Source of the DNA: Trichothermofontia sichuanensis B231
Lineage (GTDB): Bacteria; Cyanobacteriota; Cyanobacteriia; B231
Direction of reading: 5' to 3'
DNA length: 64,000 nt
Assembly: GCF_026240635.1 (NCBI RefSeq)
Contig: NZ_CP110848.1
Span: 3,429,741 to 3,493,740 of the forward strand
Position numbers and translations under genes: made by a program. The notes below the pieces were generated by a model that saw only the letters and a program-made list of their open reading frames with translations, was not told where the DNA came from and did no database searches. Below, piece after piece: positions 30,221 to 56,883 of the stretch (the stretch's first letter is position 1; each line of letters begins with the position of its first letter).

Positions 30221-30458
30221 TATGATTGTCGCAAGTGTTCAAGTCGCAGGTACCAAAGCTACCACTGCCAATTTGGGCATCGAGAAGGTAGAGCACACCC
30301 ACTGCCGTTTAGGTGACTGCCGCTAAACACAGTATGGCTTTAGTATTGACGATCGGCTGACCTTAGGCAAGGGCTAGCTCCTGCTTTCATCGCCCTAGTG
30401 CAGCGCCGGATGACTAACCCATAATGACTAGCACATGATTAATTGTGATTTTGCAACC

Positions 30459-30560
30459 TATAGTTATTTCAGATTAGAAAGAGATGTCTAAGCCCCTCTC
30501 CCACAGGGGGAGAGGGGTTGGGGGTGAGGGGGCTGTTTCAGTCTCAATTGAAATGACTAT
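30459..30560 (+). repeat. Repeat family A, variant left end (copy 5)
   Basis: The left end TATAGTTATTTCAGATTAG differs from the main A family, but it is shared with the copy at 56444-56544, as is GAGATGTCTAAG. The right half is standard: CCCTCTCCCACAGGGGGAGA, TTGGGGGTGAGGGGGCTG and CAATTGAAATGACTAT. This defines a second A subfamily. Confidence 0.8.
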
Positions 30561-30562
30561 CA

Positions 30563-30662
30563 GGGCTGCTTGAAACATTCAAATTTTCGCAACCGTGTTC
30601 ACGCAATCATAAAGGGTTAAGGTAGGCGGCAGAGCCACCCACCCCAATTAATCGAGGTTCCC
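30563..30662 (+). repeat. Repeat family E, copy 1 (100 bp), abutting the bioA stop codon
   Basis: GGGCTGCTTGAAACATTC at the left and AATTAATCGAGGTTCCC at the right, with TTTTCGCAACCGTGTTCACG and AAAGGGTTAAGGTAGGCGGC between. It aligns over its whole length, without large gaps, with the copy at 56562-56661 (also 100 bp). The inverted ends here are more decayed than in that copy. The next base begins the bioA stop codon. Confidence 0.82.
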
Positions 30663-31949
30663 TTAATTGTGCAGCATTGTTTCAATTAATTGGATTATGC
30701 CCCTGTATACATGCGCGAGTTCGGCCTCTGTAATACAGTAGGGGGGCATCAGATACAGGACATTCCCTAGGGGACGTAACAATAACCCCTGCTCAAGGGC
30801 TGCTTGGCGGATACGAGGGGCGATCTGGTTAAAGTAACCAGGGGTGTCCGGGGTAATGAGATCTAGGGCTGCGATCGTCCCCATGACGCGCAACTTTTCA
30901 ACCTGGGGAAGTGACTGGAGGGCAGGAAAATGGCTGAGATGTTTGGCTTCTAGGCCCTCAAAAGCGGGTTTAAATTCCTCTAGGAGTTCTAAAGAAGCCA
31001 GCGCTGCGGCGCAACCGAGGGGATTGGCCGTATAGCTATGGCCATGATAGAGAGCCTTGTAAATATCGTCACTATAAAAGGCGTTGTAGATCATCTCGCT
31101 GCAAACGGTGACTGCCAGGGGTAAGAAGCCGCCTGTAATGCCTTTCGACAGGCAGATAATATCGGGAGCCACGCCCGCCCGATCGCTGGCAAAAACCGAT
31201 CCAGTCCGCCCAAAGCCAGTCATGACTTCGTCAAAAATGAGCAATACGTTAAACGCCTGGCTAATGTGACGCAGTTGTTGGATAAACTCAGGCCGACAGA
31301 GGCGCATTCCTCCAGCCCCTTGCACCAGCGGTTCAATGATAATGGCTGCATAGCGATCGGGGTTTTGGCTCAAACAATTTTCCAGTTGATTAATCACCAA
31401 AGATTCCCGTAGAGATACTTCCTGATCCTGGAGATGGGTTGCGGGGAAGGGTAGAAATTCAACCTCAAACAGGAGATCCGTAAAAGCCTGAGAAAAGGGC
31501 GATCGCGATCCCACGGACATGGCCCCGAAGGTATCGCCATGATAACTACCTTCAAAGGCAATAAAAGCCGAGCGTTTTTGACCCAGATTGATCCAGTATT
31601 GATATGCCATTTTTAGAGCAACTTCTACCGCAGTCGATCCGTCATCTGAGAAAAAAACTCGACTCAGATTACTCGGCAATAATGCGGTCAACCGCTCTGC
31701 TAATTGCTCAGCCGGTTCATGGGTAAACCCAGCAAAAATGACATGTTCTAGTTGTTGTGCTTGCTGAAAAATCGCTTGAGCAATTTTGGGATGAGCATGG
31801 CCATAGAGATTGACCCACCAACTGGAAATACAATCGATAATTCTTCGCCCATCTTCTAGTTCTAACCAGATCCCTTTAGCCGCTTTAACCTTCAAGGGTT
31901 CTAGGGCAGTTTTAGCTTGAGAGAAAGGATACCAAATATGGGGATCCAT
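30663..31949 (-). CDS. bioA: Adenosylmethionine-8-amino-7-oxononanoate aminotransferase BioA
   Basis: PLP-dependent class III aminotransferase that makes 7,8-diaminopelargonate in biotin synthesis, using S-adenosylmethionine as amino donor. The 428-aa protein opens HIWYPFSQAKTALEPLKV, then ISSWWVNLYGHAHPKIAQAI (the substrate-binding tryptophans), FFSDDGSTAVEVALKMAYQY (phosphate-binding loop), FEGSYHGDTFGAMSVG, LIFDEVMTGFGRTGSVFA with the PLP-ring aspartate, and DIICLSKGITGGFLPLAVTV with the Schiff-base lysine. GHSYTANPLGCAAALASL is also standard. It lies 6 bp downstream of bioD, forming a biotin operon. Element E1 abuts its stop. Confidence 0.96.
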   Translation of the reverse strand: MDPHIWYPFSQAKTALEPLKVKAAKGIWLELEDGRRIIDCISSWWVNLYGHAHPKIAQAIFQQAQQLEHVIFAGFTHEPAEQLAERLTALLPSNLSRVFFSDDGSTAVEVALKMAYQYWINLGQKRSAFIAFEGSYHGDTFGAMSVGSRSPFSQAFTDLLFEVEFLPFPATHLQDQEVSLRESLVINQLENCLSQNPDRYAAIIIEPLVQGAGGMRLCRPEFIQQLRHISQAFNVLLIFDEVMTGFGRTGSVFASDRAGVAPDIICLSKGITGGFLPLAVTVCSEMIYNAFYSDDIYKALYHGHSYTANPLGCAAALASLELLEEFKPAFEGLEAKHLSHFPALQSLPQVEKLRVMGTIAALDLITPDTPGYFNQIAPRIRQAALEQGLLLRPLGNVLYLMPPYCITEAELAHVYRGIIQLIETMLHN

Positions 31950-54200: not shown

Positions 54201-56162
54201 GCCAGTGGCACCCCCCTGGCAACGGTATTAACGGACCTAGCCCAGTTTGTGGAAGCTCAGATCGAGTCCTGTGTGTGTAGCATCATGCTGGTGAATGAAG
54301 CCGGTACCCATCTCTACACCGCGGCTGCACCCAGTATGCCCCCAGCCTATGTATCGGCCCTCGGATCGGTACCGATCGGTCCAGATAACGGCTCCTGTGG
54401 GGCGGCAGCCTACTACAAGGAAATGGTGATTGCAACGGATATTGCCACCGATCTCCACTGGGAACAGAACTGGGAAATCGCCGTCAGTCATGGACTGCGG
54501 GGCTGCTGGTCTGTCCCCGTACTCTCCACCGGGGAGGAGGTATTGGGGACTGTAGGGGTCTATTTCCGGTCTGAGTCATCGCAGGGGGCAGAGGCAACGC
54601 GCCCCCCCCAAATCCGGGAGCAGCAATTCTTGACCCGTGTCACTGACCTAGTCCGGATCGCGATCGAACGTCAACGGGCAGAAGTTGCCCTAGCCCGCAG
54701 TGAACAGCAATATCGCCACCTGGTCGAAACCTCCCAGGACCTAATTTGGTCAATGGATCGACAACTGCGGATTACCTTTATCAACCAGGCAGCTCGCCAC
54801 ATCTTTGGCTGTGACCCTGAGAACCTGATCGGACGCTCCGTCGCCGAGGTCATGACCCCCCAGGATTTCGAGCAGGTACAACCCTTGTTTGAGCGCATCC
54901 TCGGTGGCGCTTCTGCTCGCCAGCACGAAATGACAGTCCTTTCGGCAGCGGGCAATGCCTGTTGCATCCTTTGCAATACAGTTCCCCTCCACGATGACCA
55001 GGGTACGATCGTGGGTATCACCAGTACCGCCAGTGACATCACGGCACGCAAGCAGGCCGAGGCGGCCCTGCTCCAGTTGGCGGCGATCGTGGAATCGTCT
55101 GGCGATGCAATTATCGGGCTTGACTTAAATCAGCGCATCACCAGTTGGAATCTAGGGGCAGCCATTATCTATGGCTACCAAGCGGAAGAGGCGATCGGAC
55201 AACCAATTACAACCCTGTTGTTGCCGCCAGAAGATCCCACCCCGGACTGGGAGGCCCTCACGGCCCAAACCTACACCTATCATCAGGCCCAACACTGCCG
55301 CAAGGATGGTAAACGCATCGATGTGTTTGTCACCCTATCGCCCATTAAGGCGGCAACGGGAGGCATCACGGGTTACTCCTTAATCGCCAAGGATATTAGC
55401 GATCGCGCCGCGATTGCACGCATGAAGGATGAGTTTATCTCGATCGTCAGCCACGAACTGCGCACACCGCTGACCTCGATCCGGGCGTCTTTGGGGCTGC
55501 TGCTGACCAACAAATTGGGGACGCTGGAAGACAAAGGTCGTCGCATGTTGGAGATTGCGGTTAACAACAGCGATCGGCTGATTCGGCTGGTCAGCGACAT
55601 TCTGGATCTGGAACGGCTGGAGTCGCGGCGGGTGAGCCTAAACCTCACAATGCAGGACTTTGGTGAGTTAATGTTGCAAGCGGTGGAAGTGGTGCAATCA
55701 ATGGCGGACAAGGCAAGCATTGAACTCCTGGTTGTTCCCCTCTCAGTCCAGGTGAAGGTGGATAGTGATCACATCCTTCAGGTTTTGACAAACCTGTTGA
55801 GTAACGCGATCAAATTTTCCGATGCCCACAGTCTTGTCTCCCTCACCGCCCAAGTCCAATTTCCCGCCTCCGTCTTGCCCTCAGGCGCATCGGAATGGTC
55901 AGCACCACTCCCCCCTAGCCCCCCAACCCCTTATCTGCGTGTCCAAGTGCAGGATCAGGGGCGGGGCATTCCCCCCGATATGTTGGAGACGATTTTCGAT
56001 CGTTTTCAACAGGTGGACGCCTCAGACTCACGCCAGAAGGGGGGGTCAGGACTAGGACTGGCGATTTGTCGCAGCATCGTACAGCAACATGGGGGCAGGA
56101 TTTGGGCAGAAAATAATCCCGATCGGGGATGTACCTTCTCATTTACCTTGCCACTAGCCTAG
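51228..56162 (+). CDS. Multi-PAS/GAF sensor histidine kinase with a cyanobacteriochrome-like GAF
   Basis: 1644-aa kinase (ATG 51228). Order: degenerate receiver-like N-terminus (1-175), PAS (about 201-315), GAF1 (about 325-515), PAS (525-650), PAS (655-780), GAF (790-955), GAF (972-1145), PAS (1157-1280), PAS (1281-1400), HisKA with phospho-His1409 (SIVSHELRTPLTSIRAS), and HATPase_c (NLLSNAIKFSD; DQGRGIPPDMLETIFDRF; GSGLGLAICRSIVQQHGG). GAF1 (DRVLIYQFNPDWSGKVVAES, ADIYTAGLAPCYVALLARYQ) is of the phytochrome/cyanobacteriochrome type, with Cys429 at the bilin-attachment position and Cys400 in DACL, where dual-cysteine proteins have DXCF. No transmembrane helix is visible, so it is cytoplasmic. 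It lacks its own C-terminal receiver. Confidence 0.9.
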   Translation: MSPASPDTILVLARSTHFPTSLSDDLRRAGWQVIQIEDLATAEDSQAHAAKLRGLEVTRLAAIIGDLDRLTDQMASVNVLLAGDAGGTMHQDATAATPSEPTNTEVTLVIADTVPIIALVASDTELVEATSHALAFMPQLPRRMLAPGAWPIVDYLTLPLTAPTALMRLQCHLERRALRQQLALAQRAQQYAGTAYAQQQHFFRALFEQAVMGMTLNTLDGYFIQVNQRFCNLVGYTAAELLQLTFREITYPADREVDAELTERLKRGEIESFSLEKRYIHKNGELIWAKINVSLARDPAHHPQFYVAVIEDIRDRKQAELDRQRQRQREQLFGSMTQRIRQSLQVDAILSATVEEVRAFLDTDRVLIYQFNPDWSGKVVAESVAAGWVAMLGETIHDACLSLQLCIQPYVRGSFQAIADIYTAGLAPCYVALLARYQVRANLVIPILKGATQLHPSDTDRSEDESLWGLLVVQHCAAARSWPESEIKLLQQLATQVAIALNQAELYERATQELEERRQIEASLRLSEMRLRAIFEQAAVGIDYCDLQGNFVTVNQKLCDLVGYTSSELLTMSFRDITYTEDLALDLDHKGRLIAGEIPAYSLEKRYVRKDGTLTWVHITVSLVQDPVTHQPFLVAISEDINDRKQAEMALRQSEERWQLILQANNDGIWDWNATTNQTFYSPQWREMLGYADGAVIQSNDEWIHRIHPEDQGRVLALRDAYLRREIPRYSVEYRLRHQNGSYLWVNTRAQALWDEAGRPIRMVGASRDVTARRQMEEALRQQLNRAVLHRELTAAIRSQIDIQQIFTTTANQIGQTFGVSRCHVVVYHEGPPTCLRIVAEYLAPGQSPFPHASIPLLDNPHAQKIMAQDQAVATTDVYAEPLLANVTAFCRVAQLKSLLAIRTSYQGEANGGISLNQCDRYRQWQADEIELLEEVAAQVGIALAQAKLLQQEQQRRQELDQRNTQLKHAIRERSRFETLLAGQSRILKMIASGTPLATVLTDLAQFVEAQIESCVCSIMLVNEAGTHLYTAAAPSMPPAYVSALGSVPIGPDNGSCGAAAYYKEMVIATDIATDLHWEQNWEIAVSHGLRGCWSVPVLSTGEEVLGTVGVYFRSESSQGAEATRPPQIREQQFLTRVTDLVRIAIERQRAEVALARSEQQYRHLVETSQDLIWSMDRQLRITFINQAARHIFGCDPENLIGRSVAEVMTPQDFEQVQPLFERILGGASARQHEMTVLSAAGNACCILCNTVPLHDDQGTIVGITSTASDITARKQAEAALLQLAAIVESSGDAIIGLDLNQRITSWNLGAAIIYGYQAEEAIGQPITTLLLPPEDPTPDWEALTAQTYTYHQAQHCRKDGKRIDVFVTLSPIKAATGGITGYSLIAKDISDRAAIARMKDEFISIVSHELRTPLTSIRASLGLLLTNKLGTLEDKGRRMLEIAVNNSDRLIRLVSDILDLERLESRRVSLNLTMQDFGELMLQAVEVVQSMADKASIELLVVPLSVQVKVDSDHILQVLTNLLSNAIKFSDAHSLVSLTAQVQFPASVLPSGASEWSAPLPPSPPTPYLRVQVQDQGRGIPPDMLETIFDRFQQVDASDSRQKGGSGLGLAICRSIVQQHGGRIWAENNPDRGCTFSFTLPLA

Positions 56163-56443
56163 GAATACTCGCGACTGAATTTTCCCGTTTTTTGCATTTT
56201 GTCCTTACCGTTTGTAATCTATAGCCTGCTGCAGATACAGCTCCGCCCTCAAGCATAAAGTACAGTTTTACATTCGTTAAGATGGGGGCATTGCACTGCT
56301 GCAACCCTCACCTTTGTATCTTGAGGATAGAGAGGCAGAGAAACTTGCCAATCTGGCTCCCTTTCGCTCCGTTGGGGAGAAGGGGGGGTGGGGGATGAGG
56401 ACTGCCACCTGGGATACTGCCGGTAGGATCAAGGGTCAAACCT

Positions 56444-56544
56444 TATACTTATTTCAGATTAGAAGGAGATGTCTAAGCCTCTCCCGCTATGGGAGAGGGG
56501 TTGGGTGTGAGGGGGCTGTTTCAGCCTAAATTGCAATGACTATA
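56444..56544 (+). repeat. Repeat family A, variant left end (copy 8), nested in B
   Basis: Left end TATACTTATTTCAGATTAG and GAGATGTCTAAGCC as at 30459; centre CCTCTCCCGCTATGGGAGAGG in outline; right end TAAATTGCAATGACTATA. It interrupts B between CAAACCT and AACAGTGTACTG, with TA at both junctions. Confidence 0.87.
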
Positions 56545-56561
56545 ACAGTGTACTGAGTAAA

Positions 56562-56661
56562 GGGCACCTCAAAAAATTCAACTTTTCGCAACCGTGTTCA
56601 TGCAATGATAAAGGGTTGGGGTAGGCGGCGGAGCTGTCCACCCCCATTAATCGAGGTGCCC
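56562..56661 (+). repeat. Repeat family E, copy 2 (100 bp), with a 4-bp target duplication
   Basis: The termini are perfect inverted repeats, GGGCACCTC and GAGGTGCCC. TAAA flanks both sides (56558-56561 and 56662-56665), and the uninterrupted B sequence has a single TAAA at that place. The body (TTTTCGCAACCGTGTTCATG, AAAGGGTTGGGGTAGGCGGC) matches the copy at 30563-30662. Confidence 0.92.
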
Positions 56662-56686
56662 TAAATTAGGTAAAGGTAAATTAGGT

Positions 56687-56798
56687 GGCTCTCCTGAGTT
56701 TATGGTGGGGGCGCTACGCGCCCCCACCATAAACTCAACGTTTCCGATCGTTTATTTGTAGTTGCTGATACTGTTTACCCCAAAATCCCAGAAGAGCC
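56687..56798 (+). repeat. Repeat family C, complete copy, with an 8-bp target duplication
   Basis: It runs from GGCTCTCCTGAGTTTATGG to AATCCCAGAAGAGCC, 112 bp. A perfect 19-bp inverted repeat around a TAC loop (GAGTTTATGGTGGGGGCGC and its complement) fills the left half. AATTAGGT flanks both sides exactly (56679-56686 and 56799-56806). Confidence 0.92.
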
Positions 56799-56883
56799 AA
56801 TTAGGTAAAGGCTGTATTGTAGATAGTGCTACTCAAATCCTTTGCAATTGACGACTTGCTTAATACTGACAGGTATAGGATCA

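Follow-up and report, generated by a model that had tools for sequence, protein, structure and literature searches.

A 583-bp block between sensor-kinase and response-regulator genes of a cyanobacterium is best read as a nest of four MITEs

In this genome, a 583-bp block of repeated DNA separates a hybrid sensor-kinase gene from a response-regulator gene, and the question it raises is whether it is one repeat or several mobile elements inserted into one another. One flanking gene ends at position 56162 and the next starts near 56842 of the window, by which we mean the whole 64,000-nucleotide stretch that was analyzed. The genome is a single contig of 4,436,989 bp, cyanobacterial by its relatives and repeats, and each part of the block was searched against all of it. 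The block is wholly absent in one distant kinase/response-regulator neighbor pair, that of G005, a distant relative, in which approximately 16 bp separate the conserved residues of the two proteins versus approximately 740 bp here, a comparison in which the gene pairs may not be strictly orthologous. We read the block as four nested non-autonomous DNA transposons (miniature inverted-repeat transposable elements, MITEs), with a probability of roughly 93% for this reading together with the enzymes and the course of insertions proposed below. That ISL3, IS5, and IS630 enzymes did the moving, and the course of events, are the parts that we infer.

The initial annotation placed a family B element at 56234 to 56816 and had it carry three inserts, namely A with the target TA, E with TAAA, and C with AATTAGGT. 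Direct reading and the other copies in the genome bear out this arrangement almost to the base (Table 1); the right end of B stands, and its left end falls 2 bp later than proposed. The annotation further held that removing A, E, and C with one copy of each duplication restores a normal B end plus one tandem copy. Excision of all three inserts indeed yields ..CAAACCTTAACAGTGTACTGAGTAAATTAGGTAAAGG[TAAATTAGGTAAAGG]CTGTA, and the consensus of the other B copies, read from 30 loci, is ..CCAAACCTTAACTGTGTACTGAGTAAATTAGGTAAAGGCTGTA. The excised B thus has TAAATTAGGTAAAGG in excess of the consensus, and the additional 15-bp tandem copy is therefore real.

Table 1. Features of the nested block, in window coordinates
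Feature	Position	Strand	Reading and basis
B, host of the insertions	56236..56816	+	consensus 224 bp, TA|CAGCCTTTACCT...AGGTAAAGGCTG|TA; alignment with other B copies; by direct reading TACAG at 56236 and CTGTA ending at 56816
A, including TA on both sides	56444..56544	+	TATAGTTATT...AATGACTATA type, consensus 103 bp; TA at 56444-56445 and 56543-56544 by direct reading
Left target duplication of E, TAAA	56558..56561	+	direct reading; single TAAA here in the B consensus
E, 100 bp	56562..56661	+	perfect GGGCACCTC/GAGGTGCCC termini
Right target duplication of E, TAAA	56662..56665	+	direct reading
15-bp tandem repeat TAAATTAGGTAAAGG of the B end, first copy	56662..56676	+	direct reading; not in the B consensus
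15-bp tandem repeat, second copy	56677-56686 and 56807-56811, split by C, with one C duplicate left out of the count	+	direct reading
Left target duplication of C, AATTAGGT	56679..56686	+	direct reading
C, 112 bp	56687..56798	+	GGCTCT...AGAGCC; hairpin with 20-bp arms at 56695-56737
Right target duplication of C, AATTAGGT	56799..56806	+	direct reading

For each insert, we joined the flanks, dropped one duplicate, and aligned the result to uninterrupted paralogous sequence. The joined flanks of A in the window copy of B align without gaps to positions 163-208 of the B consensus, which has a single TA (46 bp, 87% identity), and those of E align to it equally without gaps (30 bp, 97%). For C, only about 22 bp (..GTAAATTAGGTAAAGGCTGTA) are comparable because the 15-bp tandem repeat adjoins the insert; this match was judged by eye and falls below the cut-off of the script. 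The same test gave gapless restored sites for A in B at several other places. It also gave restored sites for C in B at L050 and L015 (small gaps occur in other parts of the alignments) and for E in C at L167, where three or four bases are duplicated. At L030 and L185, the uninterrupted paralogues of the sequence that C interrupts appear to encode protein, and C therefore probably lands in genes too. The uninterrupted sites are paralogues in the same genome, plus distant relatives; at the paralogues, the single target copy that the annotation had expected of empty sites was seen.

A rival reading is that the block spreads as one composite repeat, with the apparent insertions as its internal parts. 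A and E do adjoin at a second site in the window, and L041 has A at the same position of B as the nest. At that second site, however, E and A are directly adjacent, with none of the B sequence that lies between them here. At L057, the same position of B is taken by A in the opposite orientation, so that this position received more than one insertion. The four elements also occur alone and in other combinations, with the boundaries given in Table 1. Among the matches listed in searches with the separate parts, none was a second copy of the whole 583-bp block, and we consider a composite unit extremely improbable. The target duplications, the uninterrupted paralogous sites, and the separate copies instead support the claim of the annotation that four non-coding families are, or were, mobile.

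Element C has many identical copies. Most are 90% to 100% identical to one of two subfamily sequences, and 23 of 74 are identical letter for letter. Exact 8-bp target duplications flank 53 of the 74 copies, none is exact at 9 to 12 bp, and pairing the left and right flanks of different copies as a control gave 0.2% at up to one mismatch. The longest stop-free run in C is 33 codons, which leaves no capacity to encode a transposase. Its right end matches the left end of an ISL3 remnant in the same genome at 28 of 36 positions, and its left end is identical (21/21) to the first 21 bp of a decayed 1346-bp ISL3-family element in another cyanobacterium, G034, although that element has no clear 8-bp duplication of its own. 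Open reading frames adjoining the C-like ends match Zn_ribbon_ISL3 in both cases, and in the remnant they match HTH_Tnp_ISL3 and DDE_Tnp_ISL3 as well. These common termini, along with the 8-bp duplications, support C as an ISL3-derived MITE, and we propose that it moved in trans.

The remnant (L100:905-1915, within C1:3637803-3641060) is the sole ISL3 transposase found in the genome; it is frame-shifted, shortened, and interrupted by a C copy flanked by the 8-bp duplication TGACTTAT. Directly upstream of the remnant is a C-like half with a hairpin. No intact ISL3-family element was found in this genome, though C has many identical copies. C is a useful case for asking how a MITE outlives its source. 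Two further observations concern C. A further repeat, ..CTGTATCGTTCTTATTTGGATTGACTATA, seen in the flanks at L016 and L074 and with at most 92 matches in the pool described below, is itself hit by C. In G007, a cyanobacterium of another family, there are C-like (approximately 80%) and E-like (84%, 249 first-look candidates) elements (loci L216 and L236).

Element E is rarer, with approximately eight copies that are 73% to 86% identical to the window copy. Its 4-bp duplications are exact in four of seven cases in this genome and within one mismatch in six of seven, against a control rate of 29%; the control is this high because the sites are AT-rich, and the case for E by itself is weaker as a result. 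Repeats of 4 bp also occur at most E-like copies in other cyanobacteria. A 1263-bp element in G326 has the same two ends as E (identical at 21/21 and 18/18 positions), and its transposase belongs to the IS5 family (NF033581, 290 bits). No 4-bp target duplication is visible around the IS5 element in L245, and no IS5-family element with E ends was found in this genome, where none of the five DDE_Tnp_1 matches has them. The common termini support E as a MITE tied to the IS5 family.

Element B resembles the IS630-family elements (DDE_3) of the same genome, several of which, approximately 1.0 kb long, carry B-like ends. The left end of B is identical to theirs at 15 of 20 positions and the right end at 11 of 20, so that the likeness on the right is modest. 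Given this resemblance, B was probably driven by a further transposase, other than those for C and E. Most full copies of B have TA at both ends, and few paralogous sites bear on whether this is a duplication or part of the termini. At A and B, the TA could partly represent terminal bases, except where uninterrupted B copies settle the matter. Two inverted B copies approximately 2.1 kb apart flank an IS630-family copy at L139 (C1:2925741).

Such uninterrupted copies are available for A, since several A inserts lie in B, and the uninterrupted sequence has a single TA in the joined-flank test; A insertion duplicates TA there. Searches for the end motifs of A around this genome's IS630-type and DDE_Tnp_1 genes, and in 390 genomes, gave no match, and A is left without a family assignment because no transposase-bearing element with its ends was found. 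Insertion sequences with matching termini therefore exist for C and E, and similar ones for B, weakly so at its right end. The three different transposases that the annotation read from the duplication lengths are accordingly upheld by common termini for C (ISL3) and E (IS5), and the case for A comes from its TA target. At two other places, L036 and L033 (window 30455-30668), an E copy adjoins or lies within the right end of A, perhaps owing to the AT-rich ends of A.

A and B have a palindromic CTCTCCC/GGGAGAG-type core in common despite their different termini (56329-56404 and 56478-56513). This core also matches in other cyanobacterial genomes, and hairpins are present in A, B, and C. These features would be expected of REP/REPIN-type intergenic palindromes, which spread or persist because of their hairpins and are not DNA transposons. 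Such repeats are palindromes without terminal repeats or target duplications, whereas here terminal inverted repeats lie outside the hairpins, target duplications have fixed lengths, paralogous sites are uninterrupted, and the termini are common to elements with DDE transposases. REP/REPIN sequences are spread by RAYT proteins, which are not expected to leave such duplications. We regard this explanation as very improbable, and all four elements are best read as MITEs.

How unusual is it for one B copy to hold three inserts? For unbiased counts, we pooled sixty evenly spaced 20-kb stretches and the window (1.264 Mb, 28% of the genome). Loci L001-L099 are best hits, and any statistic combining them with the pool is biased towards good copies. 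Scaled roughly from the pool, hits covering at least 60% of an element correspond to approximately 411 copies of A (~103 bp), 126 of B, 172 of C, and 14 of E per genome; counted by its ends, B has approximately 176. With full-length inserts only, there are approximately 0.12 per B, which gives a rough Poisson expectation of about 0.05 three-insert copies of B per genome. This value is too low because most A hits (at least 60%) were not scored as full-length, and the true expectation is higher.

The low expectation would fit a right-end region of B that is a preferred target, a factor that would add to the transposon nest and not replace it. Two B copies have more than one insert (the window copy and one near C1:81,000 with A and C), and the same TA was taken by A at least twice. 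However, the estimate understates the rate, as it counts full-length inserts only; inserts also occur in the left and middle parts of B, and AT-rich sites combined with avoidance of genes may suffice. On balance, we think target preference rather unlikely.

For the nest of MITEs itself, we propose the following course. B, an IS630-type MITE moved by an IS630-family transposase with a TA target, would have landed at TA between the hybrid sensor-kinase and response-regulator genes. A 15-bp tandem duplication would have arisen near its right end. A, E, and C would have inserted into B, with TA, TAAA, and AATTAGGT as their respective targets and in an order that the sequence does not reveal. C would have been moved in trans by an ISL3-family transposase with an 8-bp stagger, E by an IS5-family transposase with a 4-bp stagger, and A by some TA-targeting enzyme.

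A close parallel is found in Microcystis aeruginosa PCC 7806, which has a 187-nt MITE with GGCTCTTCG ends and 8-nt duplications that has been attributed to ISL3 (PMC11448079). The reports of such ISL3-driven MITEs in Microcystis, with GGCTCTTC ends and 8-bp duplications, include differences between a laboratory mutant and the wild type (PMC11448079). The Microcystis element and C are alike in the GGCTCTTC start of their ends, their 8-bp direct duplications, their many identical copies, their stem-loop, and the match of their ends to ISL3-family elements (PMC11448079); they differ in length (187 nt vs 112 bp), and the comparison is by ends alone. Microcystis has ISL3 transposase genes whose ends match those of its MITE; in this genome, only the broken remnant was found. 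Anabaena sp. 90 has approximately 150 short inverted-repeat elements, mostly intergenic and some in genes; no matching IS ends were found for its MITEs, in contrast to C, E, and in part B (PMC3542288). MITEs are common in other cyanobacteria as well (PMC3542288; PMC10969869).

The IS630, ISL3, and IS5 families have terminal repeats and target-duplication lengths in common with, or similar to, those of the elements here; unlike those insertion sequences, our elements are 100 to 224 bp long and have no transposase gene. The cyanobacterial MITE Nezha is reported to be active (Zhou et al. 2008, as cited in PMC10969869). The small dispersed repeats of cyanobacteria, the subject of Elhai et al. 2008, are reportedly short, mobile, and nested, and much shorter than these elements. 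As ISL3-driven MITEs have already been reported in Microcystis, the kind is already known, and A, B, C, and E are, as far as searched, new members of it. The nest can be taken as a textbook example of this kind, with three of its four elements (C, E, and probably B) tied to known transposase families. From the letters alone, four recurring non-coding families could be recognized as present or past mobile elements and likely enzymes named for three.

The hairpins hold one more signal. Of the C copies, 44 have TAC as the 3-nt hairpin loop and 19 have GTA, its reverse complement, and groups of C copies identical except for the loop split 23:4 and 10:10 (TAC vs GTA) in the two subfamilies. A change from TAC to GTA takes three substitutions or a single inversion. 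Both subfamilies hold both loop states, which requires a minimum of two turns or else exchange between copies. Both orientations also occur in A (GCTCT/AGAGC, 33:9) and B (CACTT/AAGTG, 5:4). We lean towards the view that hairpins in these elements turn far more frequently than mutations arise elsewhere in the element. If turning occurs during transposition, it would point to a step that involves a hairpin or a strand switch; if it occurs during replication, it would parallel in bacteria the small hairpin inversions that are documented for chloroplast DNA (PMC2903610). The loop orientations offer a ready test of short-palindrome inversion in bacteria.
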